Source of the DNA: Lutibacter oricola
GTDB taxonomy: Bacteria > Bacteroidota > Bacteroidia > Flavobacteriales > Flavobacteriaceae
Reading direction: 5' to 3'
DNA length: 64,000 nt
NCBI RefSeq assembly: GCF_900106565.1
Contig: NZ_FNNJ01000001.1
Coordinates: 868,001 to 932,000 of the forward strand
In this document: piece by piece, positions 1 to 18,937 of the stretch
How positions within the stretch are numbered: the stretch's first letter is position 1
Layout of the letters: each line of letters starts with the position of its first letter
Notes under the pieces: model-generated
Seen by the model: the letters and a program-made list of their open reading frames with translations, nothing else
The model's database searches: none
What the model was told of the DNA's origin: nothing
Made by a program: the position numbers and the translations under genes

Positions 1-179
1 ATGGTTTTGATGAATATAACCCATTTGAATTAAAAAGATCAGCAGGTTTAGGTTTAAGAATATTTATGCCAGCCTTTGGTTTATTAGGTATAGATTTTGC
101 TCACGGGTTTGATGCAGTGCCTGGAACTACAGAAAAATCTGGTTGGCAAACACATTTCTATATAGGGCAACAATTTTGA
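1..179 (+). CDS. bamA: BamA-like outer membrane assembly factor, C-terminal fragment
   Basis: The window opens inside a reading frame (third base onward) that stops with TGA at 177-179. About 58 residues are visible. They contain the LKRSAGLGLRIFMPAFGLLGIDF stretch (shown here in part as AGLGLRIFMPAFG) and end in YIGQQF, with a terminal aromatic residue. This fits the last beta-strands of a BamA/Omp85 barrel, which inserts beta-barrel proteins into the outer membrane. The two OmpH/Skp-like genes immediately downstream are the usual partners of bamA in Bacteroidetes, which supports the call. The N-terminal POTRA domains lie outside the window. Confidence 0.85.
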   Translation, partial: GFDEYNPFELKRSAGLGLRIFMPAFGLLGIDFAHGFDAVPGTTEKSGWQTHFYIGQQF

Positions 180-212
180 TGGAAATGAGTTATATTTGTA
201 AACAAAAATAAA

Positions 213-229
213 TTGGCACGATTTTTTCT
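213..229 (+). promoter_or_regulatory. possible sigma-54-type promoter before the first OmpH gene
   Basis: TTGGCACG followed by ATTTTTTCT closely matches the sigma-54 consensus YTGGCACGrNNNTTGCW. The only departure is T for G in the -12 GC pair. The predicted start would lie only a few bases before the ATG at 245. A TATATTTG at 191-198 could instead be a housekeeping -7 element. This is inference from motif only. Confidence 0.35.
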
Positions 230-244
230 AAATAAATAATAGTC

Positions 245-1066
245 ATGACAAAGAAAGTTCTTTTAATTACAATAGTTTTAATATTGGGGTTTGCAGTTAA
301 CGCACAAAAGGCTCAAAGAATCGGTTATATTGATATGGATTATATTTTAGAAAATATTCCAGAGTATACCGAGGCTCAAGCTAAAATTAATGCAAAAGGT
401 ATTACTTGGCAAAGCAATATTGAAAAACAACAAAAAGAAATTGATGGTTTAATTGCTGAGCTAGAAAATGAAAAAGCGTTGTTAACAAAAGATTTAATTG
501 CCGAAAAAGAAGAAGATATTCAGATTAAAGAATTAGAATTAAAAAAATTACAATCTGCATACTTTGGAACAAAAGGAGATATTTATTTTTTGAGACAACA
601 ATTAGTTCAGCCAATACAAGATTTAGTTTTTAATGCAGTACAAGATATTGCAAAAAAAAGAAAATACGATTTTGTTTTAGATAAGTCAAGCGATTTAATA
701 ATGCTTTATACTAATAAATCTTTTGATATTAGCGATTTGGTAATTAATAGTATTACTAGAGCTAAAAAAACAAATGAAATTAAAAGTAAACAAGATAAAA
801 GAAAAGCAGATATTGAAGCCAAAAAGAATAAGGTTGTAGTTCCAAATGAGGCTTTACAGAAAAAAGTTTCAGATAGAGAAGCGAAACAATTAGAGTTGAA
901 GAAAAAAATTGAAGAGAAAAAAGCAGCTCAAATTAAAAAACGTGAAGAACTTAAAAAAGCAATAGAAGCTAAAAGATTAAAACGTATAAAAGAGATTGAA
1001 GATGCTAAAGCTGCAAAGCTTAAAAGAGCTCAGGAAATAGAAGAACAAAAAAAGGAAGAACAATAA
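245..1066 (+). CDS. OmpH/Skp family periplasmic chaperone, long form
   Basis: A 273-residue secreted protein with an N-terminal signal peptide (hydrophobic LLITIVLILGFAVNAQ). The mature start RIGYIDMDYILENIPEY is typical of the OmpH/Skp family, which holds unfolded outer-membrane proteins on their way to BamA. Residues about 50-110 are strongly coiled-coil. Unlike the usual 160-180 residue Skp, it has an extra C-terminal tail (about residues 180-273) that is almost entirely charged: repeated K/E-rich heptads ending in QEIEEQKKEEQ. The tail probably extends the coiled coil. It lies 66 bp after bamA and 24 bp before a second, normal-length paralogue, so the three are likely co-transcribed. The ATG start is chosen because the signal peptide follows directly. 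Confidence 0.88.
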   Translation: MTKKVLLITIVLILGFAVNAQKAQRIGYIDMDYILENIPEYTEAQAKINAKGITWQSNIEKQQKEIDGLIAELENEKALLTKDLIAEKEEDIQIKELELKKLQSAYFGTKGDIYFLRQQLVQPIQDLVFNAVQDIAKKRKYDFVLDKSSDLIMLYTNKSFDISDLVINSITRAKKTNEIKSKQDKRKADIEAKKNKVVVPNEALQKKVSDREAKQLELKKKIEEKKAAQIKKREELKKAIEAKRLKRIKEIEDAKAAKLKRAQEIEEQKKEEQ

Positions 1067-1090
1067 TTAATTTAAATAACTAGGAAAAAA

Positions 1091-1591
1091 ATGAAAAAAT
1101 TTAGAATTTTAGTATTAATAGCAATTGTAGCATTTGGTTTTAACACACTTCAAGCTCAAACAAAAGTAGGGCATATTAGTACTGATTTATTAATAAGTTT
1201 AATGCCTGAAACTAAAGCTTTAAACGCTGAATTAGAAAAGTTAAGTAAAACTTACGAAACAGAGTTAAAAGCTGAAAATGACAAGTTAGAAGCTAAATTA
1301 AAGAGATATGATGCAGAAGCTAAATCTCAAACTGATGAAGTAAACAAGCAAAGAAGTGTTGAAGTTCAACAAGATCAACAAAAATTATATCAATCTTCTC
1401 AAATTGCTCGTGAAGATATTGGTAAAAAGCGTGATGCTAAATTAAAGCCAATTTTAGAAAAAGCTAAAAAAGCTATTGACGAAGTTGCAACAGCAAATGG
1501 TTATACTTATGTTTTAGAAGCTTCTACATTAGTAGTAGCAAAAGGAACTGATTTATTACCTTTAGTAAAAGCAAAATTAGGTATTCAATAA
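1091..1591 (+). CDS. skp: OmpH/Skp family periplasmic chaperone
   Basis: A 166-residue protein with a signal peptide (ILVLIAIVAFGFNTLQAQ). The mature start KVGHISTDLLISLMPE is followed by a long helical hairpin rich in K, E and Q (about residues 40-125) and a C-terminal strand, YTYVLEASTLVVA. This is the standard length and layout of Skp/OmpH, a trimeric tentacle-like chaperone for outer-membrane proteins in the periplasm. It follows the long paralogue by 24 bp and ends just before an intrinsic terminator, so it is the last gene of the bamA unit. A role in BamA-dependent export is inferred from family and position. Confidence 0.9.
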   Translation: MKKFRILVLIAIVAFGFNTLQAQTKVGHISTDLLISLMPETKALNAELEKLSKTYETELKAENDKLEAKLKRYDAEAKSQTDEVNKQRSVEVQQDQQKLYQSSQIAREDIGKKRDAKLKPILEKAKKAIDEVATANGYTYVLEASTLVVAKGTDLLPLVKAKLGIQ

Positions 1592-1611
1592 TACTTTAAT
1601 TATATAAAATT

Positions 1612-1637
1612 AAAATCCCGCAATAGCGGGATTTTTT
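1612..1637 (+). terminator. intrinsic terminator after skp
   Basis: AAATCCCGC (1613-1621) pairs with GCGGGATTT (1626-1634) around an AATA loop and runs into a T tract. It closes the bamA-OmpH unit and separates it from murI. Confidence 0.9.
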
Positions 1638-1666
1638 ATACATTTATATTTCAAAAAAGATTAAAA

Positions 1667-2458
1667 GTGAATAATCAACCAATAGGCTTATTTGATTCAG
1701 GTATTGGAGGAACTTCAATTTGGAGAGAAGTTGTAAAGTTGTTACCAAACGAAAAAACAATTTATTTAGCAGATAGTAAAAATGCACCTTATGGAGCTAA
1801 ATCTGAAGATGAAATTGTTGCCCTTTGTGTTAAAAATACTGAATTGCTATTAAGTAAAGGTTGTAAGCTAATAATTGTAGCCTGCAATACAGCAACTACA
1901 AATGCAATAGATTATTTACGTAAAACATATAAAGTGCCTTTTATAGGTATTGAACCAGCTATAAAACCAGCAGCATTATTTAGTAAATCAAAAGCTGTAG
2001 GAATTTTAGCAACAAAAGGAACTTTAAGTAGTAAATTATTTGAAAAAACAGCAAAAGAGTACACAAAGAATATAACAACTATTGAACAAAATGGTGAGGG
2101 TTTAGTTGCTTTAATTGAAAGCGGTAAATTGGTTTCTTTAGAAACAAAAACGCTTTTAGAAAAGTATCTAAAGCCAATGTTAAGTTTTAATATAGATCAT
2201 CTGGTTTTGGGATGTACACATTATCCTTATTTAATACCTCAAATTAGAGAAATTGTAGGTGATAATGTTAGAATTATAGATTCGGGTGAAGCAGTAGCAA
2301 AACAAACAAAAGCTATTCTTAAAAAGTTTAATATTGAAGCTGTTTCTTCCGAAGAAAATAATTTACATCAGTTTTATATTAATATAAAAAAGAATGTTCT
2401 AGAAGGTATGTTAGCTGGTATTCCAAATAATTATTTGGTTGAAGAATTGAAATTTTAG
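1667..2458 (+). CDS. murI: glutamate racemase
   Basis: MurI interconverts L- and D-glutamate in the cytoplasm and supplies D-Glu for peptidoglycan. The 263-residue protein shows the family hallmarks: N-terminal IGLFDSGIGG with the catalytic-region Asp/Ser, ADSKNAPYG, the first catalytic Cys in VACNTATT (about residue 73) and the second in LGCTHYPYL (about residue 183). The length is normal. The start is GTG at 1667; no in-frame ATG precedes IGLFDSG, so GTG is preferred. The gene lies 30 bp after the skp terminator and converges on metK, with which it shares a bidirectional terminator. Confidence 0.95.
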   Translation: MNNQPIGLFDSGIGGTSIWREVVKLLPNEKTIYLADSKNAPYGAKSEDEIVALCVKNTELLLSKGCKLIIVACNTATTNAIDYLRKTYKVPFIGIEPAIKPAALFSKSKAVGILATKGTLSSKLFEKTAKEYTKNITTIEQNGEGLVALIESGKLVSLETKTLLEKYLKPMLSFNIDHLVLGCTHYPYLIPQIREIVGDNVRIIDSGEAVAKQTKAILKKFNIEAVSSEENNLHQFYINIKKNVLEGMLAGIPNNYLVEELKF

Positions 2459-2462
2459 CATT

Positions 2463-2498
2463 AAAAAAGCCCAATTGAAATTTCAATTGGGCTTTTTT
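2463..2498. terminator. bidirectional terminator between murI and metK
   Basis: A perfect 18-bp inverted repeat (AAAAAAGCCCAATTGAAA and its complement) with A and T tracts at either end. It can terminate both converging genes. Confidence 0.92.
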
Positions 2499-2515
2499 AT
2501 TAGTTTTAATACTAT

Positions 2516-3775
2516 TTATAATTTAAAAGCTTCTTTTACTTTAGAAACATAATCTAATTTTTCCCAAGTAAATAATTCAACTTCAATTGTTTTATCTTCA
2601 TTACCATTCATATTTTTAAATGTCTTGGTAACAATTTCATTTTTACGTCCCATATGTCCATAAGCAGCACTTTCTAAGTACATTGGTTGACGTAATTTTA
2701 AACGCTCTTCAATTGCTGAAGGTCTCATATCAAATATTGAAGAAACAATTTCTGCAATTTCTCCATCGGCTAAATCCACATTAGCAGTTCCGTAAGTGTT
2801 TACATAAATCCCCATAGGTTCTACAACTCCAATAGCGTAAGAAACCTGAATTAAAATTTCATCAGCAACACCTGCAGCAACTAAATTTTTAGCAATATGA
2901 CGTGTAGCATACGCAGCACTTCTATCTACTTTACTAGGATCTTTTCCTGAAAAAGCGCCACCACCGTGAGCTCCTTTTCCTCCGTAAGTATCAACAATAA
3001 TTTTTCTTCCGGTTAAACCGGTGTCACCGTGTGGTCCACCAATTACAAATTTACCAGTTGGATTTACGTGATATACTATATTATCATTAAATAAAGCTTG
3101 AATTGAAGCTGGTAATTTAGCAATTACACGTGGAATAAGAATGTTAATAATGTCGCTTTTAATTTTAGCTAACATTTCGTCATCATTTTCTAAAAACTGA
3201 TCGTGTTGTGTAGAAACAACAATATCCTTAATTCTAAAAGGTACGTTGTCATCTGTATACTCAATAGTTACTTGGCTTTTAGAATCTGGGCGTAAATAAG
3301 TTATTTCATTATTTTCTCTTCTTAATAAAGCAAGTTCTTCTAAAATTTTATGACTTAAATCTAAAGCTAAAGGCATAAAGTTTTCGGTTTCGTTGGTTGC
3401 ATAACCAAACATCATACCTTGGTCACCAGCACCTTGTTCTTCTTTAGTGTCTCTATCAACACCTTGATTTATATCTTGAGATTGCTCGTGAATTGCAGAA
3501 AATACTCCACAAGAATTTCCATCGAACATATATTCGCTTTTTGTGTAGCCAATTTTGTTAATTACATCTCTAGCTATTTTTTGAACATCTAAATATGTTT
3601 TAGACTTCACTTCACCTGCCAATACAACTTGTCCTGTAGTTACTAGTGTTTCACAAGCAACCTTAGAATCTTTATCAAATGCTAAAAAATTATCTACTAA
3701 AGCATCTGAAATTTGATCAGAAACTTTATCTGGGTGTCCTTCAGAAACAGATTCTGATGTAAATAAATACGACAT
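2516..3775 (-). CDS. metK: S-adenosylmethionine synthetase
   Basis: MetK makes S-adenosylmethionine from methionine and ATP. The 419-residue protein starts [19 protein letters not shown], the ATP/metal-binding N-terminus of the family. It carries [12 protein letters not shown] (adenine-binding loop) and [19 protein letters not shown] (phosphate-binding P-loop-like segment), with [18 protein letters not shown] between them. All three interleaved MAT domains appear complete. The length is slightly above that of the E. coli enzyme, which is usual for Bacteroidetes. Its 5' leader holds a SAM-II-type aptamer, so the product of the enzyme probably represses its own synthesis. It is divergent from metY, so the two Met genes share one intergenic control region. 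Confidence 0.97.
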
Positions 3776-3846
3776 ATTTAATTTATTTTAATTATTACTG
3801 AAACGATAAGTTGACTGCATTGGTCGCTAAAAGAAGTAAAAAATTA

Positions 3847-3897
3847 CGCTTTAGCATTTTTTAACGAGGTTGCAATCAGTTCAAATCCTTCCTCTTA
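3847..3897 (-). promoter_or_regulatory. SAM-II riboswitch (metK leader)
   Basis: Read on the minus strand, the leader has GAGGAAG, GATTTGAAC, then TGATTGCAACCTCG, then AAAAAATGCTAAAGCG. The GAGG/CCTC pair can form the first helix, and the A-rich linker followed by ATGCTAAAG matches the SAM-II pseudoknot core as I remember it. SAM-II is known in alpha-proteobacteria and Bacteroidetes before Met genes. The aptamer begins close to the predicted transcript start and lies about 70 nt before the metK ATG. The class call rests on motif recall; a covariance-model search would settle it. Confidence 0.82.
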
Positions 3898-3910
3898 GAT
3901 TTTGAGCGTA

Positions 3911-3918
3911 CAAATTTA
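3911..3918 (-). promoter_or_regulatory. metK promoter -7 element
   Basis: TAAATTTG on the minus strand fits the Bacteroidetes TAnnTTTG element and lies about 14 nt before the SAM-II aptamer. No clear TTTG -33 element is visible upstream. Confidence 0.5.
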
Positions 3919-3968
3919 TAAATTCTATTTATATAAAAAATGTTTAATTGATTTTTTTATTGAAAATG

Positions 3969-3999
3969 TTTGGTTATTTAAATTTTGTCATTACATTTG
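3969..3999 (+). promoter_or_regulatory. promoter of the metY leader transcript
   Basis: TTTG (3969-3972), a 19-nt spacer and TACATTTG (3992-3999) are a good Bacteroidetes -33/-7 pair. Transcription would start around 4003-4006, just before the first leader peptide ATG at 4020. Confidence 0.7.
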
Positions 4000-4019
4000 T
4001 CGCAACAAAAAAAGTAAAA

Positions 4020-4088
4020 ATGAATACAATGTTTAAAAATATGCGTACTATGATGTGTAAAAATTACACCAGGAGAGCTATTGTTTAA
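4020..4088 (+). CDS. Met-rich leader peptide 1 of the metY attenuator
   Basis: A 22-codon open frame reading MNTMFKNMRTMMCKNYTRRAIV, then TAA. Five of the first 12 codons are ATG, and the run ends ATG ATG TGT (Met-Met-Cys). The frame starts about 15 nt after the predicted transcript start and is followed by an intrinsic terminator at 4111-4141. A short translated frame loaded with codons for the amino acid whose pathway gene lies downstream is the classic layout of ribosome-mediated attenuation (trp, his, thr leaders). From AGG at 4071, AGAGCT could pair, with a bulge, with AGCCTCT in the terminator arm as a weak antiterminator. No homologue is known to me, so function is inferred from layout. 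Confidence 0.7.
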   Translation: MNTMFKNMRTMMCKNYTRRAIV

Positions 4089-4110
4089 ATATTAGTAAAA
4101 TATAAAATAT

Positions 4111-4141
4111 AAAGCCTCTGAATTATCAGAGGTTTTTTTTT
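4111..4141 (+). terminator. attenuator terminator 1
   Basis: CCTCTGA (4115-4121) pairs with TCAGAGG (4126-4132) over an ATTA loop, followed by nine Ts. It lies 22 nt after the stop of leader peptide 1 and well before metY, so it must be passed for metY to be expressed from the upstream promoter. Confidence 0.88.
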
Positions 4142-4150
4142 AACAAAAAA

Positions 4151-4237
4151 ATGAAGAATTCAAGATTAAATATAATGCGTAAAACTATGTTAATGCGAAT
4201 GATGTGCATTGCAATGAGCAGGTATTACCTAAACTAA
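4151..4237 (+). CDS. Met-rich leader peptide 2 of the metY attenuator
   Basis: A 28-codon frame from ATG 4151: MKNSRLNIMRKTM, then LMRMMCIAMSRYYLN and TAA. Seven codons are ATG, most of them clustered, again with Met-Met-Cys (ATG ATG TGC at 4199-4207). Translation could also begin at the in-frame ATG 4175. The last codons (AGGTATTACC, 4220-4229) are the exact reverse complement of GGTAATACCT (4277-4286) in the loop and upper stem of the second terminator. A ribosome stalled at the Met-Met pair would leave this arm free to form an antiterminator; one reaching the stop codon would cover it. The Met-Met-Cys to AGG spacing (12 nt) is the same as in leader 1. Confidence 0.75.
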   Translation: MKNSRLNIMRKTMLMRMMCIAMSRYYLN

Positions 4238-4305
4238 ACGAACTAAAAAATCATTTTTATAGATTTAAGTCTCTTTGGTAATACCTAAACCAGAGAGACT
4301 TTTTT
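4220..4305 (+). promoter_or_regulatory. attenuator 2: antiterminator/terminator switch before metY
   Basis: Terminator form: AAGTCTCTTTGG (4267-4278) pairs with CCAGAGAGACTT (4290-4301), 12 bp with one G-U, then a T run. Antiterminator form: AGGTATTACC (4220-4229, inside leader peptide 2) pairs perfectly with GGTAATACCT (4277-4286). The two forms overlap at 4277-4278 and are topologically exclusive. The metY ATG follows 39 nt after the T run. Confidence 0.75.
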
Positions 4306-4343
4306 ATTTAAAATTAAAATCAAAAACATTAAAATATATTATT

Positions 4344-5621
4344 ATGAGTACTCAAAAAATTTCAACACAAGCTTTACACGCAGGACACGATACAAATTCA
4401 ACTTCAGGAACAAGAGCAGTTCCAATTTATCAATCTTCATCATATGTATTTAACGATACAGAGCACGCAGCAAATTTATTTTCATTGAAAGAATTAGGGT
4501 TTATTTATACTAGATTAAATAACCCAACAAATGATATTTTACAACAACGTTTAGCTGCTATTGAAGGTGGTGTTGGAGCCGTAGTTTTTGCTTCAGGAAC
4601 TTCTGCAATATCAACAGGGCTATTAACATTGTTAAAAGCTGGAGATCATATTGTGGCTTCAAGTAGTTTATATGGAGGTACATTTACGTTGTTAAGTGTT
4701 ACATTGCCAAGATTAGGTATTACAACTACGTTTGTAGACGCTTCAAATCCGGATAACTTTAAGGATGCGGTACAAGACAATACAAGAGCATTTTTTGTTG
4801 AATCTTTAGGAAATCCAAAATTAGATGTATTAGATCTAGAGGCAATTGCAGAACATTCTAAAGCGGCTAAAGTTCCTTTTATTGTAGATAATACTGTGGC
4901 AAGTCCAGCATTGTTAAATCCAATTAAACATGGGGCAAATTTAGTAATACACTCATTAACAAAATATATTGGAGGACAAGGAAATTCATTAGGTGGAGCA
5001 ATTATTGATGCTGGAACTTTTGATTGGGCAAATGGGAATTATCCTGAATTTACAGAGCCTTCAGCAGGTTACCACGGGTTAGTTTATAGCGAGGCTTTAG
5101 GAGCTGCAGCCTTTACTTTTAAATTAATATTAGAAGGTTTGCGTGATTTTGGTGGAGCATTAAGTCCATTCAATGCTTTTCAAATTATACAAGGTTTAGA
5201 AACATTACCAGTACGTATAAAACAACATAGTGCAAATGCGCTTGAATTAGCTGAGTGGTTAGAAAATAAAGAAGAAGTTGCTTGGGTAAATTATCCAGGA
5301 TTAGAAAGTAGTAAGTACAATGCATTAGCTAAAAAATATTTACCAAAAGGTCAAAGTGGATTGGTAACTTTTGGATTAAAAGGAGGTTTTGAAGCTGCAA
5401 AATCAGTTACAGATGCAACTAAAATATTTTCATTATTAGCAAATATTGGAGATACAAAATCACTAATAATTCATCCAGCAAGTACAACACATCAACAATT
5501 AACTGATGAACAACAAGAATCGAGTGGAGTAACAAAAGATTTAATAAGGCTGTCTGTAGGGCTTGAAGATATTGAAGATTTAAAAGCTGATTTAGAGGAA
5601 GCTTTTGCTTCATTAAAATAA
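4344..5621 (+). CDS. metY: O-acetylhomoserine aminocarboxypropyltransferase (sulfhydrylase)
   Basis: A PLP enzyme of the Cys/Met metabolism family that makes homocysteine directly from O-acetylhomoserine and sulfide. The 425-residue length, the N-terminal STQALHAGHD and the insertion around NGNYPEFTEPSAGYHGL identify the longer MetY/OAHS type rather than MetZ or MetB. The PLP lysine is K207 in HSLTKYIGGQGNSLGG; C-terminal IHPASTTHQQL binds substrate carboxylate in the family. The ATG at 4344 is chosen. A frame open further upstream would start with TTG inside the attenuator stem, which is unlikely. The gene follows two Met-leader attenuators and precedes a SAM-I riboswitch and the enzyme that makes its substrate. 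Confidence 0.94.
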   Translation: MSTQKISTQALHAGHDTNSTSGTRAVPIYQSSSYVFNDTEHAANLFSLKELGFIYTRLNNPTNDILQQRLAAIEGGVGAVVFASGTSAISTGLLTLLKAGDHIVASSSLYGGTFTLLSVTLPRLGITTTFVDASNPDNFKDAVQDNTRAFFVESLGNPKLDVLDLEAIAEHSKAAKVPFIVDNTVASPALLNPIKHGANLVIHSLTKYIGGQGNSLGGAIIDAGTFDWANGNYPEFTEPSAGYHGLVYSEALGAAAFTFKLILEGLRDFGGALSPFNAFQIIQGLETLPVRIKQHSANALELAEWLENKEEVAWVNYPGLESSKYNALAKKYLPKGQSGLVTFGLKGGFEAAKSVTDATKIFSLLANIGDTKSLIIHPASTTHQQLTDEQQESSGVTKDLIRLSVGLEDIEDLKADLEEAFASLK

Positions 5622-5636
5622 TTTATTTTAAAAAGT

Positions 5637-5668
5637 GTTGGTTGAGAAAAAATTAATGCGTTAATTTG
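5637..5668 (+). promoter_or_regulatory. promoter of the metX fusion leader
   Basis: GTTGG near 5637-5641 and TTAATTTG (5661-5668), separated by about 20 nt, approximate the -33/-7 pair. The same CGTTAATTTGC string precedes the second SAM-I riboswitch at 37957, which supports it as a real promoter element. Confidence 0.5.
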
Positions 5669-5697
5669 CGGTCGAGTTCATAAGCTTATTGAATATT

Positions 5698-5794
5698 GTT
5701 ATCAAGAAAGGCAGAGGGAATAGACCCTGTGAAGCCTTAGCAACCCTTTATCTTTAAAGAAGGTGCTAAATTCTACCCAATTTGGATAGATAAC
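5698..5794 (+). promoter_or_regulatory. SAM-I (S-box) riboswitch before the metX fusion
   Basis: P1 is GTTATC (5698-5703) with GATAAC (5789-5794). Inside are the S-box core blocks AAGAAAGGCAGAGGGA, CCCTGTGAAGCCTTAGCAACCC and AAGGTGCTAAATTCTACC (second block quoted as CTGTGAAGCC plus TTAGCAACCC). These match the SAM-I consensus, so expression should fall when S-adenosylmethionine is plentiful. It controls the aspartate-to-O-acetylhomoserine enzyme downstream. Confidence 0.93.
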
Positions 5795-5798
5795 TAAC

Positions 5799-5830
5799 AA
5801 AATTACAACTGTAATTTTCTGCATTTTTTT
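5799..5830 (+). terminator. candidate expression-platform terminator of the SAM-I riboswitch
   Basis: AAAATTAC (5799-5806) pairs with GTAATTTT (5811-5818) over an AACT loop, followed after five bases by seven Ts. It sits directly 3' of P1. The stem is short and AT-only, so termination strength is uncertain. Confidence 0.45.
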
Positions 5831-5881
5831 CTTAACAATAATTAATAATCAACTAAAATATAATAGTAGATATAATTATTA

Positions 5882-8800
5882 ATGAGTAATTTAAAACACA
5901 TATCGGTAACTAATTTTAAATCAGAAAAGGGTGATATTTATCCTGAATTAAAATTATCGTATCAACAATTTGGGCGAGCGTTACATTCAGCTCCAATTGT
6001 TTTAGTAAACCACGCATTAACTGGCAATAGTAATGTTGCAGGTAAAGATGGTTGGTGGAGCGATTTAGTTGGAGAAAATAAAATTATTGACACCAATACA
6101 TATACCGTTATTTCATTTAACATTCCTGGTAATGGTTTTGATGGTTTTGAAATTAAAAACTATAAAGATTTTGAAGCGCGTGACATTGCTAATATTTTTC
6201 TGTTAGGTTTAAAATTACTTAAAATTGAACAATTATTTGCTTTAGTTGGAGGTTCGTTAGGTGGTGGAATTGCTTGGGAAATGGCTGTAATTAATCCTGT
6301 AGTTACTAAACATTTAATTACTATAGCTACTGACTGGAAATCAACAGATTGGTTAATTGCTAACTGTCAAATTCAAGAGCAGTTTTTATCAAATTCTAGC
6401 AATCCAGTGCACGATGCGCGTATGCACGCAATGTTGTGCTACAGAACACCAGAATCATTTAAAGAAAGGTTTCAACGTTCAAAAAATGAGGAGCTTAAAA
6501 TATTTAATGTAGAAAGTTGGTTGTTGCATCACGGAGAAAAATTACAAGAGCGTTTTCAACTATCAGCCTATAGATTAATGAATCAGTTGTTAAAAACAAT
6601 TGATGTTACCAAAGGTAGAAGCGAAAATGTGTTAGATAGTATAAAAGCCAATATTCATATAATTGGGGTAGATTCAGATTTGTTTTTTACAGCTGAAGAG
6701 AATAAAGAAACGCATAAACAATTAGCATTAACCAACCCGAGTGTTACATATAACGAAATAAATTCGGTACATGGGCACGATGCATTTTTAATAGAATACA
6801 AACAATTAGGTAAAATAATAGAGCCAATTTTTAATCAAAGTTCTAAAAGTAATAAGATGAAAGTAGTAAAGTTTGGAGGAAAATCTTTAGCTAATGGCAA
6901 AGGTTTAGAAAGTACTATAAATATAGTAGCTAAAAAAGTAGAAAATGGAGAGCAAATTGCCTTAGTTGTTTCAGCTAGAGGAAAAACTACGGATCAATTA
7001 GAGTCTATTTTAGAAAAGGCAAAAAACAATTTACCTTATTTAGAAGAATTGCAAGAATTAAAAGAATATCAACTAAAAAATGATCCATCTTTTAATGTTG
7101 CTGAAGAGTTTAAGCTTTTAGATGAAATTTTTAAAGGAGTAAATTTATTAGGAGATTATAGTGCAAAAGTAAAAGATCAAATATTAGCGCAAGGTGAGAT
7201 TTTATCAGCCAAAGTAATTGCGGATTTGCTTAAGAAAAAAGGATTAAAAGCAAACTTTGTTGATTCTAGGCAGCTAATTAAAACCAATGATGCATTTGGA
7301 AAAGCACAACCTTTTGAAAGTGTATCTGAAGATAATGTTGTTGCTCATTTTTCTAAACAAGACACTGATGAAATTCAAGTAATTACTGGGTTTATCGCTT
7401 CAAACTTAAAAGGAGAAACAACTACGTTGGGTAGAAATGGAAGTAATTATTCAGCAGCATTAATTGCTAATTTTTTAAATGCTTCTGAGTTTCAAAACTA
7501 CACACACGTAAACGGAATTTATACTGCAAATCCAGATTTGGTCGAAAAAGCTAAAAAAATTGAACGTTTGTCGTATCAAGAAGCTAATGAAATGGCAAAT
7601 TTTGGAGCTAATATTTTGCACGCCAAAACAGTTATTCCGTTAATTCAGAAGAATATTCCACTAAGAATTTTAAATACTTTTGATAATGAGAATGAAGGAA
7701 CTTTAATTGGACCAGAAACTCAAGGTGGAGGAATTAAATCTTTATCGGTTCAAGAAGATGTTGCACTTGTTAATTTAGTTGGTAGAGGTTTATTAGGTAA
7801 AGTTGGTGTTGATGGTAGAATTTTTACAGCTTTAGGAAAAGAAAATATTAGCGTTAGTATTATTTCTCAAGGTTCTTCAGAAAGAGGAATCGGTTTTATT
7901 GTGGATGCTAAAAATGGTTACAAAGCTAAGCATGTGTTAGAAAATGAGTTTAAAAGCGATTTTCAAAGTAAAGATGTTAGCAAGGTTTATGTAACTGAAA
8001 ATGTATCGGTTATTTCAATTATTGGACAAACATTAAATACATTCCATCAACCATATAGTGCTTTAATTAAAAATAACATTACACCTGTATTGATTAATAA
8101 TACGGTTACAGGAGAAAATGTTTGTTTGGTTGTGAAACAAACAGAACTTAATAAGGCGGTAAATGTTGTTCACGGTGAAATTTTTGGAGTATCAAAAAAT
8201 ATAAATATTGCTGTTTTTGGAAAAGGTTTAGTTGGAGGAACGCTAATTGAGCAAATTTTAAAGAGTGAGCAGAATATTTTAAAACGTAAAAACATTCAAC
8301 TAAATGTTTTTGCTGTTGGTAATTCCAAAAAAGTATTGTTGAATAAAAATGGAGTTTCTTCTAGTTGGGAGAATGATTTAAATGCTAAAGGCTTTGAAAA
8401 TTATACAGTAAAAGATGTTATTGAGTATGCGGATAAAAACCATTTAGAAAATTTAATAGCAATTGATAATACTGCAAGTGCTCAATTTGTACAAAATTAT
8501 ATTGAGTTAGTTGAAAACGGTTTTGATTTAATTTCATCAAATAAAGTGGGTAATACCTTAAGTTATGATTTTTATAAAGAGTTGCGTGAAAAATTAGCAG
8601 CGCATAGAAAATCATACTTGTATGAAACTAACGTTGGTGCAGGCTTGCCTTTAATTGATACTATTAAAGTATTGCACGATTCAGGAGAAAATATTACAGG
8701 AATTAGAGGTGTATTCTCAGGTTCATTAAGTTACTTATTTAATAATTTTTCGGTTCAAGATAGACCATTTAGTGAAGTTTTAAGTGAAGCTATTGAAAAT

Positions 8801-9274
8801 GGATATACAGAACCAGATCCGCGTGAAGATTTATGTGGAAATGATGTAGGAAGAAAATTATTGATTTTAGCTCGTGAGTTAGATTTACAAAATGAATTTG
8901 AAGATGTTCAAATTGAAAATTTAATTCCAGAAGATTTACGTGAAGGTTCTGCGGAAGAGTTTTTAGGTAAGTTAGAAGAAATGAATGCACACTTTAAACA
9001 AGTAAAAGACAATCAAAAAGAAGATCACGTGTTACGTTATATAGGTGATTTATCTGGTGATTTACAACAAGACAAGGGTGTTTTAGAAGTAAAATTAGTT
9101 TCAGTTCCAAAATCAAGTGCGTTAGGACAAATACAAGGTGCAGATGCAATTTTTGAAATATTTACAGAGTCTTACGGAGAAAAACCAATTGTAATTCAAG
9201 GAGCTGGAGCAGGAGCGGCAGTAACTGCACGTGGTGTGTTTGGTGATATTTTACGTTTAGCAGATAAAAATTAA
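5882..9274 (+). CDS. trifunctional homoserine O-acetyltransferase / aspartate kinase / homoserine dehydrogenase
   Basis: One 1130-residue frame joins three methionine/threonine enzymes. Residues 1 to about 322 are a MetX-type alpha/beta hydrolase: nucleophile S125 in GGSLGGG, D266 in DSDLFF and H299 in HGHDAFL form the expected triad. A new internal start-like segment at 326 (MKVVKFGGKSLANG) begins the aspartate kinase. ACT-type regulatory repeats (ISVSIISQGSSERGIGF) fill about 620-770. Homoserine dehydrogenase follows from about 774 (NIAVFGKGLVGG; TNVGAGLPLIDT; GYTEPDPREDL). Together these convert aspartate and aspartate semialdehyde to O-acetylhomoserine, the substrate of the flanking metY and metZ, apart from the semialdehyde dehydrogenase step. 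The kinase has THVNGIYTANP at 541-551 where E. coli ThrA has TDVDGVYTCDP. A SAM-I riboswitch precedes the gene. Confidence 0.93.
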   Translation: MSNLKHISVTNFKSEKGDIYPELKLSYQQFGRALHSAPIVLVNHALTGNSNVAGKDGWWSDLVGENKIIDTNTYTVISFNIPGNGFDGFEIKNYKDFEARDIANIFLLGLKLLKIEQLFALVGGSLGGGIAWEMAVINPVVTKHLITIATDWKSTDWLIANCQIQEQFLSNSSNPVHDARMHAMLCYRTPESFKERFQRSKNEELKIFNVESWLLHHGEKLQERFQLSAYRLMNQLLKTIDVTKGRSENVLDSIKANIHIIGVDSDLFFTAEENKETHKQLALTNPSVTYNEINSVHGHDAFLIEYKQLGKIIEPIFNQSSKSNKMKVVKFGGKSLANGKGLESTINIVAKKVENGEQIALVVSARGKTTDQLESILEKAKNNLPYLEELQELKEYQLKNDPSFNVAEEFKLLDEIFKGVNLLGDYSAKVKDQILAQGEILSAKVIADLLKKKGLKANFVDSRQLIKTNDAFGKAQPFESVSEDNVVAHFSKQDTDEIQVITGFIASNLKGETTTLGRNGSNYSAALIANFLNASEFQNYTHVNGIYTANPDLVEKAKKIERLSYQEANEMANFGANILHAKTVIPLIQKNIPLRILNTFDNENEGTLIGPETQGGGIKSLSVQEDVALVNLVGRGLLGKVGVDGRIFTALGKENISVSIISQGSSERGIGFIVDAKNGYKAKHVLENEFKSDFQSKDVSKVYVTENVSVISIIGQTLNTFHQPYSALIKNNITPVLINNTVTGENVCLVVKQTELNKAVNVVHGEIFGVSKNINIAVFGKGLVGGTLIEQILKSEQNILKRKNIQLNVFAVGNSKKVLLNKNGVSSSWENDLNAKGFENYTVKDVIEYADKNHLENLIAIDNTASAQFVQNYIELVENGFDLISSNKVGNTLSYDFYKELREKLAAHRKSYLYETNVGAGLPLIDTIKVLHDSGENITGIRGVFSGSLSYLFNNFSVQDRPFSEVLSEAIENGYTEPDPREDLCGNDVGRKLLILARELDLQNEFEDVQIENLIPEDLREGSAEEFLGKLEEMNAHFKQVKDNQKEDHVLRYIGDLSGDLQQDKGVLEVKLVSVPKSSALGQIQGADAIFEIFTESYGEKPIVIQGAGAGAAVTARGVFGDILRLADKN

Positions 9275-9287
9275 ATTTAGGGGCAAC

Positions 9288-9304
9288 GAGCTGAGTCGAA
9301 GTGA
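9288..9304 (+). repeat. short dispersed motif GAGCTGAGTCGAAGTG
   Basis: Resembles TTGAGCGGAGTCGAAATC at 12607-12624. Short strings of this kind recur in flavobacterial intergenic DNA. Function unknown. Confidence 0.4.
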
Positions 9305-9322
9305 AAAAGCGAAAAGCCAAAA

Positions 9323-9412
9323 TTGCGTTAGCGATAGGAGTGACATCCTTTTTTGAAGAGTAACGTAAAAAAAGATATAACGGATAGCGCGACCTAAAAG
9401 GGAACGCCCAAA
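9323..9412 (+). repeat. 90-bp dispersed intergenic repeat, copy 1
   Basis: Begins TTGCGTTAGCGATAGGAGTG and includes CATCCTTTTTTGAAGAGTAA, GGATAGCGCGACCT and GGAACGCCC. A near-identical copy lies at 41868-41957; the two differ at only a handful of positions. Both copies sit just downstream of a methionine gene and just upstream of another. Confidence 0.9.
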
Positions 9413-9442
9413 TAATACAAATTAGTAATTAAGAATTGAAAA

Positions 9443-10612
9443 ATGTGCGATTATAATTTTGAAACAGATGCAATTAGGAACCAGTTAGAGCGTTCTCAAT
9501 TTCAAGAGCATTCTACACCAATGTATGTAACATCTAGTTTTGTGTTTGACGATGCTGAGGATATGAGAGCTTCATTTACGGAAGAAAAAATTAGAACCAT
9601 ATATTCTCGATATAGCAACCCAAATACTACAGAGTTTTTACAGAAAGTTGTAGCTATGGAAGGAGCGGAAGATGGTTTTGCTTTTGCTACTGGTATGGCG
9701 GCAATTTATTCAACTTTTGCTGCTTTGTTAGAAAGTGGGGATCATATTGTTTCGGCTCGTTCGGTTTTTGGATCAACGCATTCGTTGTTTACAAAGTATT
9801 TTCCAAAATGGAATATTACTACTTCATATTTCGATATAAATAAACCAGAAGAAATAGAGAGTTTTATTACGCCTTCAACAAAAATATTATATGCAGAAAC
9901 TCCAACAAATCCAGGTGTAGATATTTTAGATTTAGAATTGTTAGGTAAGATTGCAAAAAAGCATAATTTATTATTAATTATAGATAACTGTTTTGCAACA
10001 CCTTATATTCAACAACCAATAAAATATGGGGCGGATTTGGTAGTACATTCTGCAACCAAATTAATGGATGGTCAAGGTCGTGTGTTAGGCGGAGTTGTAG
10101 TTGGGAATACAGAATTGATTCGTGAAATTTATTTGTTTTCGCGTAATACTGGTCCGGCGTTGTCGCCTTTCAATGCTTGGGTGTTGAGTAAAAGTTTAGA
10201 AACTTTAGCAGTTAGAGTAGATAGGCATTGTGAAAATGCATTAAATCTAGCTGAGTTTTTAGAAGGGCACGAGCAAGTTTCAAAAGTAAAATATCCATTC
10301 TTAAAATCTCACCCTCAATATAAAATTGCTAAAAAGCAAATGAAATTGGGAGGTAATATTATTGCCATTGAAGTAAAAGGCGGTATAGAGTCGGGGAGGA
10401 AATTTTTGAATGCGATTAAAATGTGTTCGCTATCTGCAAACCTTGGTGATACGAGATCAATTGTTACGCATCCGGCATCTACAACGCATAGTAAACTAAG
10501 TGAAGAAGAGCGTTTAAATGTTGGAATTACTCCTGGTTTAGTGCGTATTTCTGTAGGTTTAGAGAATATATCAGACATTATTTCAGACATAAATCAGGCA
10601 TTAAATAATTAA
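9443..10612 (+). CDS. metZ: O-succinyl/O-acetylhomoserine sulfhydrylase, MetZ type
   Basis: A second PLP-dependent Cys/Met metabolism enzyme, 389 residues, without the MetY insertion. PLP lysine K206 lies in HSATKLMDGQGRVLGG; TIYSRYSNPNTTEF near residue 53 and THPASTTHSKL near the C-terminus are family signatures. MetZ enzymes make homocysteine from an activated homoserine and sulfide. Because the homoserine-activating enzyme upstream is MetX (acetyl), O-acetylhomoserine is the likely substrate here despite the family name, though this is inference. It follows the trifunctional gene by 168 bp, which contains a dispersed repeat, and precedes the sulfate operon. Cystathionine gamma-synthase is an alternative assignment. 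Confidence 0.85.
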   Translation: MCDYNFETDAIRNQLERSQFQEHSTPMYVTSSFVFDDAEDMRASFTEEKIRTIYSRYSNPNTTEFLQKVVAMEGAEDGFAFATGMAAIYSTFAALLESGDHIVSARSVFGSTHSLFTKYFPKWNITTSYFDINKPEEIESFITPSTKILYAETPTNPGVDILDLELLGKIAKKHNLLLIIDNCFATPYIQQPIKYGADLVVHSATKLMDGQGRVLGGVVVGNTELIREIYLFSRNTGPALSPFNAWVLSKSLETLAVRVDRHCENALNLAEFLEGHEQVSKVKYPFLKSHPQYKIAKKQMKLGGNIIAIEVKGGIESGRKFLNAIKMCSLSANLGDTRSIVTHPASTTHSKLSEEERLNVGITPGLVRISVGLENISDIISDINQALNN

Positions 10613-10670
10613 TTTTTTATAGGTTTTTTTAAGGAAATGTTAAAAAAATGACTTTTTATAATTTTAAAGT

Positions 10671-10709
10671 CTACCAATTTGGTAGGGTAATAAATTAAAT
10701 GTATGTTTG
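10671..10709 (+). promoter_or_regulatory. sulfate operon promoter with palindromic operator
   Basis: The -33 TTTG (10678-10681), a 20-nt spacer and TATGTTTG (10702-10709) form a clear promoter. The palindrome CTACCAATTTGGTAG (10671-10685, 7-bp arms around one base) straddles the -33 element, so a bound protein would block RNA polymerase. An Rrf2-family cysteine regulator would fit, but none is encoded in the window. Confidence 0.7.
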
Positions 10710-10742
10710 CAGCGTTAAAAAGTATAGTTTAAACTGTAAATA

Positions 10743-11009
10743 ATGATATTAGATCAAATACTTATTCCGAATAAAAGTAAGGATGAAGTTAGTGCAAAGT
10801 CTGCAAAAACTTCAGAGAAACCGATTCGTAGTGCTGTAAAGGCTATTAGTTGGAGGATAATAGGGACTTTGGACACCATGATTATCTCTTATTTTATAAC
10901 AGGAGAGTTAACAATGGCAATTTCAATAGGCTCTATTGAAGTAGTTACTAAGATGCTTCTTTATTATGGTCACGAACGTATTTGGAACCTTATTAAATGG
11001 AGGAAATAA
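10743..11009 (+). CDS. DUF2061 membrane protein
   Basis: An 88-residue protein whose C-terminal two thirds (RSAVKAISWRIIGTLDTMII through KMLLYYGHERIWNLIKW) is the DUF2061 pattern: a W-R-I-x-G-T-x-D core with two predicted membrane segments. The family has no proven biochemical role but is often found beside sulfate-assimilation genes in Bacteroidetes. Here it is the first gene of the cys operon, and its TAA stop overlaps the cysH ATG (TAATG), which implies translational coupling. A role in sulfate or sulfite handling at the membrane is a guess from position only. Confidence 0.82.
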   Translation: MILDQILIPNKSKDEVSAKSAKTSEKPIRSAVKAISWRIIGTLDTMIISYFITGELTMAISIGSIEVVTKMLLYYGHERIWNLIKWRK

Positions 11010-11626
11010 TGGAAAATTTAGATATAGAACAAATAAATAAAGATTTACAAGGTAAGTCGCCACAAGAAATTATTACTTGGGCTATTAGTGTAGCCAAAGC
11101 ACCTTTAGTTACAACAAATTTTAGACCTTATGAAGTTGCAATTTTACATGCTTGTACACAGGTTGATGATAATTTAAAAGTAATTTGGTGCGATACAGGT
11201 TATAATACACCACAAACCTATAAGCATGCAAATGAGTTAATAAACACATTGCAATTAAATGTTCATTTGTATGTACCGCAACAAACATCTTCTCATAGAG
11301 ATGCTACTATTGGTATTCCTCAAATTGAAGATCCTTTACATAAATTGTTTACAGAGCAAGTAAAGTTAGAGCCTTTTAACAGAGCAATGAGTGAGCATAA
11401 ACCAGATGTTTGGTTTACAAATTTACGTAAGGGACAAACAGCTTTTAGAGATAGTATTAGTGTAGTATCATTAAGTAAAGATGGTGTTTTAAAAGTGAGT
11501 CCTTTTTATAATTGGACTGATGAGCAATTAGATGCTTATTTAGAAGAAAATAATTTACCAAACGAATTTAAATATTTCGACCCAACAAAGGTATTGTCGA
11601 ATAGAGAATGTGGATTGCATTCATAA
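11009..11626 (+). CDS. cysH: phosphoadenylylsulfate (PAPS/APS) reductase
   Basis: CysH reduces activated sulfate to sulfite with thioredoxin or glutaredoxin as donor. The 205-residue protein has the adenosine-phosphosulfate reductase fold: TTNFRPYEVAILHACTQVDD near the N-terminus, VIWCDTGYNTPQTY, then WFTNLRKGQT, and the catalytic cysteine in RECGLHS at the very C-terminus. The paired CC...CxxC cysteines of iron-sulfur APS reductases are absent, which points to the PAPS type. However, no cysC kinase is visible in this operon, so the true substrate is open. The start at 11009 overlaps the DUF2061 stop; an ATG four codons upstream is possible. Confidence 0.9.
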   Translation: MENLDIEQINKDLQGKSPQEIITWAISVAKAPLVTTNFRPYEVAILHACTQVDDNLKVIWCDTGYNTPQTYKHANELINTLQLNVHLYVPQQTSSHRDATIGIPQIEDPLHKLFTEQVKLEPFNRAMSEHKPDVWFTNLRKGQTAFRDSISVVSLSKDGVLKVSPFYNWTDEQLDAYLEENNLPNEFKYFDPTKVLSNRECGLHS

Positions 11627-11636
11627 AAAAAGAAAG

Positions 11637-12536
11637 ATGACAGAAACAGTTCAAATAAACGCACTTGAGAACGAAGCAATTTATATTTTTAGAGAGGTTG
11701 CTGCTCAATTTGAAAAGCCAGTATTATTATTTTCTGGTGGAAAAGACTCGATTACATTGGTGAGGTTAGCTCAAAAAGCATTTCACCCTGCAAAAATTCC
11801 TTTTCCATTAATGCATATTGACACAGGTCATAACTTTCCTGAAACAATTGAATTTAGAGATAGGCTAGTTGAAGAATTAGGGTTGGAATTAATTGTACGT
11901 AACGTGCAAGATTCAATAGACCAAGGTAAAGTAAAAGAAGAAACTGGTAGATATTCAAGTAGAAATATGCTGCAAACAACTACTTTGTTAGATGCTATTG
12001 AAGAGTTTAAGTTTGACGCGTGTATAGGTGGTGCAAGAAGAGATGAAGAAAAAGCAAGAGCTAAAGAACGTATTTTCTCTGTAAGAGATGATTTTGGTCA
12101 ATGGGATGAAAGAAATCAGCGTCCTGAGTTATTCGATATGTTAAATGGTGAAATTGATTTTGGACAAAATGTACGTGTTTTTCCAATTTCTAACTGGACA
12201 GAATTAGATGTTTGGACTTATATAGAACGTGAAAATTTAGAAATTCCATCTATTTATTTTGCTCATAAACGTGAAGTGTTTTTAAGAGATGGACTTATTT
12301 GGTCTGCTTCGGAACATGTGTATAGAGATGATGATGAGGTTGTAGAAGAACGTATGGTTCGTTTTAGAACAGTAGGAGATATGAGTTGTACAGCAGCTGT
12401 AGATTCTTATGCAACTACAATTAGTAAAGTTGTTTCAGAAATTAGAGATTCTAGTATTTCAGAACGTGGAGCTAGAATTGATGATAAAAGATCTGAAGCA
12501 GCAATGGAAGAACGTAAACAACAAGGGTACTTTTAA
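11637..12536 (+). CDS. cysD: sulfate adenylyltransferase subunit 2
   Basis: CysD is the catalytic subunit of the two-subunit ATP sulfurylase, which makes APS from sulfate and ATP. The 299-residue protein has the PP-loop LLFSGGKDSITLVRLA, then HIDTGHNFPET, a GGARRDEEKARAKERIFS segment, and C-terminal SERGARIDDKRSEAAMEERK. All are typical of CysD, and the length is standard. The ATG at 11637 is chosen because the ALENEAIYIFREVA start follows and a longer frame would run back into cysH. It lies 10 bp after cysH and needs the GTPase CysN encoded 128 bp downstream. Confidence 0.96.
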   Translation: MTETVQINALENEAIYIFREVAAQFEKPVLLFSGGKDSITLVRLAQKAFHPAKIPFPLMHIDTGHNFPETIEFRDRLVEELGLELIVRNVQDSIDQGKVKEETGRYSSRNMLQTTTLLDAIEEFKFDACIGGARRDEEKARAKERIFSVRDDFGQWDERNQRPELFDMLNGEIDFGQNVRVFPISNWTELDVWTYIERENLEIPSIYFAHKREVFLRDGLIWSASEHVYRDDDEVVEERMVRFRTVGDMSCTAAVDSYATTISKVVSEIRDSSISERGARIDDKRSEAAMEERKQQGYF

Positions 12537-12604
12537 GCCGGAAGTTTATAAAGTTAAAAAGTTTTAAAGTAGAAAGTTTAAAAGGAGTTGTTAATTGAAA
12601 AGGT

Positions 12605-12624
12605 GATTGAGCGGAGTCGAAATC
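12605..12624 (+). repeat. short dispersed motif GATTGAGCGGAGTCGAAATC
   Basis: Lies in the 128-bp cysD-cysN gap, within AT-rich filler. Its ends (GATT/AATC) are inverted. A related string lies at 9288-9304. Function unknown. Confidence 0.45.
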
Positions 12625-12664
12625 AAATAACCTAACACTAGCAACTAACAACCAAAAGCAAAAA

Positions 12665-13912: not shown

Positions 13913-14009
13913 ATAAAGAGAAGAAAATCAATTACATATAAATTAAGTAAAGCTCATAATTCCTTATAAACTAGGGAATCTATTACTACTAACTAAAAAA
14001 TCAAATAGA

Positions 14010-16100: not shown

Positions 16101-16860
16101 AAAAAAATCTAAAGTAACGTTAATCGGTGCGGGTCCTGGTGACCCGGATTTGATTACGGTTAAAGGTGTTAAGGCACTTCAAAAGGCAAAAGTTATTTTG
16201 TATGACGCGTTAATAAATAGAGAATTGTTGGAGTACGCTCCAGATGCAAAAAAAATATTTGTTGGCAAACGTAAAGGTTATCATAGGTATTCTCAAGATG
16301 AGATTAATGAACTTATTGTAAAAAATGCTTTTGAATTTGGAGATGCTGTTCGTTTAAAAGGAGGTGATCCTTTTGTGTTTGGACGAGGATCTGAAGAGGT
16401 TGATTATATAGAATCTTTTGGTATTGAAACTGAAGTTATTTCAGGTATATCATCATCTATGGCAGTTCCTGCAAGTCAAGGAATTTCGTTAACAAAACGT
16501 GGTGTTTCAGAAAGTTTTTGGGTAATTACTGGAACAACTTCAGAAAGAAAATTATCTAACGATGTTTATTTAGCAGCTCAATCTACGGCAACTATTGTTA
16601 TTTTAATGGGAATGAGTAAGCTTAGTGAAATAGTTGAAATATTTAAAAAATACAATAAAGCTGAAGTTCCTACTGCAATTATTCAGAATGGAACTACGGT
16701 AAACGAAAAGCTAGGGTTAGGAACTATAAATACAATTGAAGAAGTAGTTGAGCAAAAGCAATTATCTTCTCCTGCAATTATAGTTATTGGTGAAGTTGTT
16801 AAAGAAAGTTCGAAATTTCACTCTTTTTATCAAAATGTTCATTCTGAACTAACAAAGTAG
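16090..16860 (+). CDS. cobA: uroporphyrinogen-III C-methyltransferase, sulfite cluster copy
   Basis: A SUMT enzyme that methylates uroporphyrinogen III twice to precorrin-2, the first step to siroheme. The 256-residue protein has VTLIGAGPGDPDLITVKGVKAL, the P-loop-like SAM site, then LYDALINRELL, VRLKGGDPFVFGRGSEE and GISSSMAVPASQGISLTKRG. The ATG at 16090 is chosen. It overlaps the reductase stop by 11 bp and leaves a short KKKSKVTLIGAG lead; an upstream ATG at 16063 would lie deep inside the reductase gene. It supplies the cofactor of its neighbour. A diverged paralogue is encoded at 31656-32432 in the nitrite cluster. Confidence 0.95.
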   Translation: MKLKKKSKVTLIGAGPGDPDLITVKGVKALQKAKVILYDALINRELLEYAPDAKKIFVGKRKGYHRYSQDEINELIVKNAFEFGDAVRLKGGDPFVFGRGSEEVDYIESFGIETEVISGISSSMAVPASQGISLTKRGVSESFWVITGTTSERKLSNDVYLAAQSTATIVILMGMSKLSEIVEIFKKYNKAEVPTAIIQNGTTVNEKLGLGTINTIEEVVEQKQLSSPAIIVIGEVVKESSKFHSFYQNVHSELTK

Positions 16861-16901
16861 GTAAAGTATATTTTATTACTAATTTTACAGCCTAAAATAA
16901 A

Positions 16902-17489: not shown

Positions 17490-17506
17490 TTTTTAATATA
17501 AAGTTT

Positions 17507-18928: not shown

Positions 18929-18937
18929 AGTTTTGAG

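Follow-up and report, generated by a model that had tools for sequence, protein, structure and literature searches.

Two putative ribosome-mediated methionine attenuators arranged in series upstream of metY in Lutibacter and related Flavobacteriaceae

The sequence upstream of metY in the window, the whole 64-kb stretch of Lutibacter DNA analyzed here, contains two consecutive units, each made of a short Met-rich open reading frame and an intrinsic terminator. We propose that these units are two ribosome-mediated transcription attenuators that act in series and control metY, methionine starvation being the signal. On comparative sequence evidence, we consider this reading to be highly probable (about 0.87). 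A ribosome-mediated Met attenuator before metY had already been suggested in a first-pass annotation of this DNA, and that suggestion is now supported by conserved reading frames, Met codons almost confined to one frame, covarying terminator and antiterminator pairings and a fixed stall geometry.

The gene metY (4344–5621, plus strand) encodes a Cys/Met metabolism PLP enzyme (PF01053, E 6.5e-134), probably of the O-acetylhomoserine sulfhydrylase type, and is the target gene of both leaders. The metY proteins of eight named Lutibacter loci share 90–95% identity with it. Upstream, on the minus strand, lies metK (2516–3775), which is preceded by a SAM-II riboswitch (3841–3900, minus strand; Rfam match). 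On the other side, a SAM-I riboswitch (5696–5796, plus strand; Rfam match) precedes a 1130-aa ORF located 3′ of it, a fusion of a putative metX with aspartokinase and homoserine dehydrogenase (metX-thrA). SAM-II, the two Met attenuator units and SAM-I, three kinds of RNA sensor, are thus found inside 2 kb. A predicted promoter of the form TTTG-N19-TACATTTG (3969–3999, plus strand) ends 20 nt 5′ of the leader 1 ATG. Its TAnnTTTG-type element is, we assume, the Bacteroidetes promoter consensus. The element occurs at most 70 nt upstream in 38 of 46 unit-1 loci, 19–20 nt before the ATG in 26 of these, and the extended form TTG-N19-22-TAnnTTTG is present in 31/46.

The surrounding region (2516–17489) is a sulfur cluster with metK, metY, the fused metX ORF, metZ-like, cysH/cysD/cysN-like, sulfite-reductase-like and sirohaem genes, most of these names being putative. 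A Flavo-1 RNA (RF01705) is located at 9311–9398, between the metX-thrA ORF and the metZ-like gene. Ahead of the cysH operon, the palindrome CTACCAATTTGGTAG (10671–10685) lies slightly 5′ of a −7 box, TATGTTTG (10702–10709), and is a candidate operator. No Met-rich leader followed by a terminator was found in the part of the window that separates metZ from the cysH operon.

The elements of the two units reported in the first-pass annotation could be verified. Leader ORF 1, MNTMFKNMRTMMCKNYTRRAIV (4020–4088, plus strand; 22 codons, 5 Met), and leader ORF 2, MKNSRLNIMRKTMLMRMMCIAMSRYYLN (4151–4237, plus strand; 28 codons, 7 Met), agree base for base with that description. Both contain Met-Met-Cys followed, after a 12-nt gap, by AGG. 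Terminator 1 (regions 3:4; 4111–4141, plus strand) consists of a hairpin at 4111–4136 (−13.5 kcal/mol) and a U-tract, and terminator 2 (4267–4305, plus strand) of a hairpin of −17.4 kcal/mol with a U-tract reaching 4305. The leader segment AGGTATTACC (4220–4229, plus strand) is, as had been claimed, the exact reverse complement of GGTAATACCT (4277–4286), which lies within terminator 2; the fold also supports AGGTATTACC as the unit-2 antiterminator arm. In unit 1 the corresponding arm (region 2; 4072–4079, plus strand) has its partner at 4113–4119, and is identified from a fold that is weak in this genome together with the relatives. A simple terminator scan detected terminator 1 and missed terminator 2, because the loop of the latter exceeds the length that the scan permits. 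A terminator resembling terminator 1 elsewhere in the genome (L002) was also considered, and was set aside as it follows a gene end.

Such units are exceptional within the window. A strict scan of both strands of the 64 kb (ORF of 12–36 codons, Met-Met, at least 3 internal Met, terminator within 110 nt) returned exactly two matches, leaders 1 and 2, and none on the minus strand. The 196 window ORFs of 18–32 aa have a mean of 0.69 internal Met, with ORF2 being the maximum (6); this count takes the longest ATG start per stop, so that ORF1 is hidden there within a longer ATG frame. Met accounts for 17.5–18.4% of leader codons in the alignments versus 1.9% in window ORFs of at least 200 codons.

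We then examined conservation, counting distinct upstream regions after near-duplicate genus loci had been dropped. A metY orthologue is present in 30 of the 38 genus genomes sampled, the remaining 8 showing distant relatives only. Unit 2 precedes metY in 30/30 distinct Lutibacter loci and unit 1 in 29/30, the sole locus lacking the unit-1 frame being cut by a contig end. The two units are also present in both Lutimonas loci, whose second leaders are Met-poor (2 and 3 Met), and the two Flavicella loci have unit 1 only. Terminators kept with frames broken, the outcome named earlier as one that would speak against the attenuator, was seen in none of the 30 distinct genus loci; outside the genus, L016 keeps a terminator near the unit position with no recognizable Met leader. 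Excluding the start codon, ATG triplets in frames 0/+1/+2 number 122/7/0 in 33 unit-1 rows, 159/0/12 in 31 unit-2 rows and 181/5/2 in 46 diverse unit-1 rows, all rows having been selected for presence of the ORFs. L088/L007 were left out of the unit-1 rows (contig end) and L124 out of alignment A4 (truncated, near-duplicate).

The alternative RNA pairings are conserved as well. In the first alignments, of 33 unit-1 rows (Lutibacter, Lutimonas, Flavicella) and 31 unit-2 rows (Lutibacter, Lutimonas), terminator 1 is formed in 100% of cells and has 3 double-changed pairs; the values are 92.4% and 1 for antiterminator 1, 96.4% and 5 for terminator 2, and 89.2% (slid, at most 51.0%) and 4 for antiterminator 2. 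In the 46-row, many-genus unit-1 set, 99.5% of the terminator 1 cells are paired, 56 cells being changed on both sides; for the antiterminator the figures are 85.7% (slid, at most 58.8%) and 21. The number of covarying antiterminator pairs in this set is unremarkable (3 vs 2.6 in shuffles), the signal residing in the cells and the scores. The unit-1 leader arm, terminator 5′ arm and terminator 3′ arm change together (GCAGAGG/CCTCTGC/GCAGAGG, GCAGCG/CGCTGC/GCAGCG and GCAAGGG/CCCTTGC/GCAAGGG), as is required by two alternative structures that have one arm in common.

Pairing between the leader tail and the terminator 5′ arm was compared with dinucleotide-shuffled controls. In unit 1 the mean z is −2.57 (n = 46), with 34/46 tails at rank 10 of 200 or better and 12/46 falling short; in unit 2 it is −3.83 (n = 31), with 30/31 at that rank. 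Another 20 leaders of each unit, picked by eye, gave a mean z of −2.87 for unit 1 (17/20 at rank 25 of 500 or better, 3 misses) and of −2.6 for unit 2 (14/20, 6 misses). No excess pairing was found in the leader tails of L174 and L196. In the window itself unit 1 is lopsided, with an antiterminator hairpin of −7.6 kcal/mol against −13.5 for the terminator and an antiterminator duplex at rank 30 of 200 shuffles; this antiterminator being weak, the case for unit 1 rests on the relatives. The window unit-2 antiterminator reaches −15.0 versus −17.4 kcal/mol for its terminator. As this antiterminator can fold while the 3′ terminator arm is still to be transcribed, the contest would be a fair one. 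Among the results that count against the attenuator reading are the weak unit-1 antiterminator of the window, the leader tails that miss the ranks given above, the Met-poor leaders of Lutimonas and of genus g127 (see below) and a leader frame in L154 that is too short to reach the arm. Furthermore, when the window leader RNA is folded alone, the unit-2 arm also folds on itself (P unpaired 0.253).

When the 46 unit-1 rows were analyzed with RNAalifold, the program returned, unprompted, a third hairpin (1:2) within the leader that had been missed in the first-pass annotation. In the window it corresponds to GTGTAA-AAA-TTACAC (4055–4069, plus strand), and overlaps the Met-Met-Cys codons. In the 46-sequence alignment 89.0% of its cells are paired (slid, at most 63.9%) and 26 cells are changed on both sides. 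With this hairpin, unit 1 has the full 1:2, 2:3, 3:4 set of a trp-type leader. A conserved hairpin occupying the antiterminator arm was looked for in unit 2, and none was found. The unit-1 arm is less free (unpaired) behind its own upstream sequence than behind shuffled ones (0.296 vs 0.457), which is not so for the unit-2 arm (0.439 vs 0.419). The idea that there is no protector hairpin, so that missing initiation would open both units, was discarded on account of the lower freedom of the unit-1 arm and of hairpin 1:2.

At one pair of hairpin 1:2, both sides differ in 16 sequences, and the codon after Met-Met passes from TGT (Cys) to TGG (Trp).

Stall geometry is nearly fixed. The arm lies 15 nt after the second Met of Met-Met in 31/46 unit-1 rows and 18 nt after it in 11/46, and the stop codon lies 18 nt beyond the arm in 36/46. 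In unit 2 of the window, Met-Met is 18 nt from the arm (4202 to 4220). In L154 the leader frame stops before the arm. A ribosome covers approximately 12–15 nt ahead of the A site and 15 nt behind the P site. With such a footprint, the spacing observed means that a ribosome at Met-Met would leave the arm free and cover arm 1 of the hairpin, and that one at the stop codon would mask the arm.

The mechanism that we propose would be as follows. Transcription would start just 3′ of 3999, and in each unit a ribosome would translate the Met-rich leader. With abundant Met-tRNA, translation would proceed to the stop codon, where the ribosome would sit on the arm (4072–4079 in unit 1; 4220–4229 in unit 2), the terminator would form and transcription would end. 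When Met is short, the ribosome would stall at Met-Met, the free arm and the 5′ terminator half would pair and RNA polymerase would continue. In unit 1, the stalled ribosome would also cover the 5′ arm of leader hairpin 1:2, which otherwise would tie up the antiterminator arm. Readthrough would run from unit 1 through unit 2 into metY.

Taking into account the features by which attenuators are recognized, both leaders are rich in codons for the end product (5 and 7 Met), and two intrinsic terminators, conserved and covarying, stand between leader and structural gene. Antiterminator and terminator are mutually exclusive, the former overlapping the leader ORF and being weak in unit 1 of this genome; the spacing fits stalling and release for a footprint of the usual size; and a protector/pause hairpin of the trp type is present in unit 1, none conserved on the arm having been found in unit 2.

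To follow the element beyond the genus, a covariance model of unit 1 (R2) was built from 46 sequences and 397 Flavobacteriaceae genomes were scored. At E 1e-4, 84 of them have a match, 40 of these with at least 52 bits; as R2 is tuned to unit 1, as the best few candidates per genome were scored and as the samples are partial, these and the following distribution figures are lower bounds. One locus was inspected for each of the 40 genomes and the other 44 were inspected in part, weak matches not being counted as members. Thirty-nine of the 40 loci resemble the element and span 25 genera, that is, at least 25 of the 237 sampled Flavobacteriaceae genera; at the remaining one (G366, L211) the match falls on the end of an unrelated gene. 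The gene downstream of the 40 loci is metY in 31 and metX in 4, in one of these behind an OsmC-like gene. Single cases are a putative metZ-like gene, a TonB receptor (with a second leader and metY behind), a presumed transposase-like gene, a small gene and the false match. Of 20 stretches examined, 7 contain a Met-rich leader and 13 do not, these being mostly gene ends with ordinary terminators.

At E 1e-4, 56/296 genomes of the order sample have a match. Genus g127, presumably Flavobacterium, contributes 24 genomes at that threshold, 8 of them with at least two places above 54 bits, and several of its leaders have 2–3 Met (L173, L176, L177, L189, L190, L193). Outside the family the element is sparse; convincing cases are G585 and G432, before metY, and G454, where the leader is followed by a gene that we take to be DUF2061-like and by cysH, with G433 as an ambiguous case. 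In the class sample 14/395 genomes match at E 1e-5; 8 are beyond the order, and 3 of these look real, G888 and G935 before metY and G1006 with two leaders before a sulfite-reductase-type gene.

Several loci show other arrangements. In g127 locus L198 (G352; 1757–5371), as well as in L178 and L180–L185, a TonB-receptor gene follows leader unit 1, and in L198 unit 2 and metY stand behind it, as if the gene had been inserted between the units. Two further Met/Cys-rich short ORFs with terminators lie on the minus strand of L195 (4528–4767; G598) before a transporter gene, presumably of the EamA-like family. In L152 (G388), a leader-like ORF, MFTLKIIETKMMLQT, with a terminator is found 29 nt before an elongation-factor-G-like gene; this may be due to chance. 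L151 and L158, weak matches in different genera, have TTGATTAATAGCG in common ahead of the terminator, possibly an unrelated conserved RNA. A further weak match, on the minus strand of L160 (G408), is an Ile-rich ORF, MKNITIISSIISAIVIIASAEGKL (Ile at 8 of its 24 positions), followed by a terminator and by a gene (L160:2-1306) for a thiamine-diphosphate enzyme, probably of the acetolactate-synthase type. We consider it a candidate Ile attenuator, which suggests that Flavobacteriaceae probably employ this kind of control for other amino acids as well.

The first-pass annotation had also raised the possibility that Cys is sensed, and this is the alternative that best survives: the leaders would read Cys-tRNA besides Met-tRNA, forming a sulfur-amino-acid sensor opened by lack of either. 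We hold it to be a serious possibility, though not the one that we favor. Cys represents 6.9–8.5% of leader codons versus 0.83% in window ORFs of at least 200 codons; Cys-packed second leaders occur in other genera (L135, L139, L117); and targets include cysH with cysD/cysN-like genes (L207, L199), a PALP cysteine-synthase-type gene (L174) and sulfite reductase (L215). However, the Cys codon after Met-Met in unit 1 alternates with Trp under RNA pairing, its last base taking part in a compensatory change, and thus unit-1 Met-Met-Cys was rejected as a sign of Cys sensing. Moreover, the ..RYC tail in unit 2 coincides with the antiterminator arm, and counts of Cys triplets by frame are confounded by ATG. 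Cys may nevertheless be co-sensed in genera with a Cys-packed second leader or with a target in sulfate reduction (cysH or sulfite reductase).

An RNA switch that binds tRNA or a metabolite directly, the short ORFs being incidental, would fit both the strong sequence conservation of TTTGGTAATACC in terminator 2 and the SAM riboswitches nearby. We judge it very unlikely, as ATG is frame-specific and the spacing to arm and stop is conserved in units of codons. The metY leader stretch gave no Rfam match at E up to 1, positions 1–20000 of the window gave no T-box covariance-model match at E up to 1, and no SAM riboswitch model matched inside the metY leader, SAM-II and SAM-I being present only alongside. 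Met/Cys-rich peptides can bind metals, and the peptides themselves might act, for instance as metal-binding small proteins beside ordinary terminators; this is slightly harder still to credit, since the peptides diverge outside Met-Met and the RNA-paired tail and since antiterminator and terminator pairings covary. That the short ORFs are chance products of AT-rich DNA next to ordinary terminators, common as such ORFs are (196 of 18–32 aa in the window), can practically be dismissed in view of the conservation, the frame-specific ATG, the three covarying hairpins and the only two scan matches in 64 kb.

We also compared the distribution of the Met leaders with that of SAM-I. Among 80 named metY loci, a regular expression for the S-box core found it at most 450 nt upstream in 59; a leader is present in 12 and neither in 9, and leader and SAM-I core occur together before metY in 0/80. 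Rfam searches of 20 of these loci agree: SAM-I stands before metY in 12 (leaders in 0/12) and elsewhere in 8 (leaders in 4/8). In 19 leader-bearing metY loci, Rfam found no SAM-I in the interval separating the leader from metY. The two can be combined, as is shown by L119, where SAM-I lies after a leader and ahead of metX. L012, L016, L031 and L040 have neither SAM-I nor a Met leader upstream of metY, SAM-I standing after it. As SAM-I occupies the place of the leader before metY in relatives, replacement of one sensor by the other is directly testable.

A broader hypothesis would be that of a sulfur-amino-acid attenuator regulon extending across Bacteroidia, comprising metY, metX, a metZ-like gene, the cysH operon, sulfite reductase and a TonB receptor, and built on two mechanistically different leaders in series, replacing SAM-I before metY; as a whole we regard it as tentative and rather doubtful. 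Unit 1 would open only on actual stalling, through hairpin 1:2, and unit 2 also when its leader is untranslated; the pair would sense elongator Met-tRNA and leader initiation, plus Cys-tRNA in some genera. The series logic, for which the first-pass annotation had proposed a steeper or two-input response, and the differing behavior of the units when the leader is untranslated are predictions.

The metY leaders resemble the trp, his, thr, leu, ilv and phe leader attenuators in having a short leader rich in end-product codons, alternative antiterminator and terminator, and a biosynthetic target, unit 1 having in addition 1:2, 2:3 and 3:4 pairings. They differ from those leaders, known from Proteobacteria and others, in their Met control codons, in the two units in series, in lacking a conserved 1:2 in unit 2 and in belonging to Bacteroidota. 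T-boxes read tRNA charging. Met T-boxes as well as SAM-I and SAM-II likewise control Met genes through RNA but, unlike the metY leaders, bind tRNA or SAM directly. In the sections of PMC3766115 that were covered, attenuators are named for His, Leu, Thr, Trp, Ile/Val and Phe, Met being absent from these specificities, and Met T-boxes are mentioned. A study of Flavobacterium psychrophilum, of the same family as Lutibacter, reports "strong clues" that leader peptide attenuation operates upstream of amino-acid operons, the word methionine being absent from its main text (PMC9723704); some overlap with the present leaders is possible. Cys leaders have sulfur-amino-acid control codons and proposed stalling, with Cys instead of Met and in other phyla; examples are uORFC-8-2 before cysS in Rhodobacterales (PMC8632094) and leaders at cys operons of Mycobacterium, where no terminators were seen (PMC1262725), the latter source also having seen no conserved RNA structures upstream of Met operons in Actinobacteria. 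PMC2965389 and PMC7366714 provide further context. In the passages of open-access literature that were searched, we found no description of a leader-peptide attenuator with Met control codons.

The Met attenuator proposed here is doubled in series, in a phylum in which ribosome-mediated attenuation is little characterized, and its covariation spans three RNA arms. SAM-II and SAM-I share a span of 2 kb with the two Met leaders, so that a single pathway would be read via SAM as well as via the charging of Met-tRNA. The Met leaders would also offer a natural assay of transcription–translation coupling in Bacteroidota.
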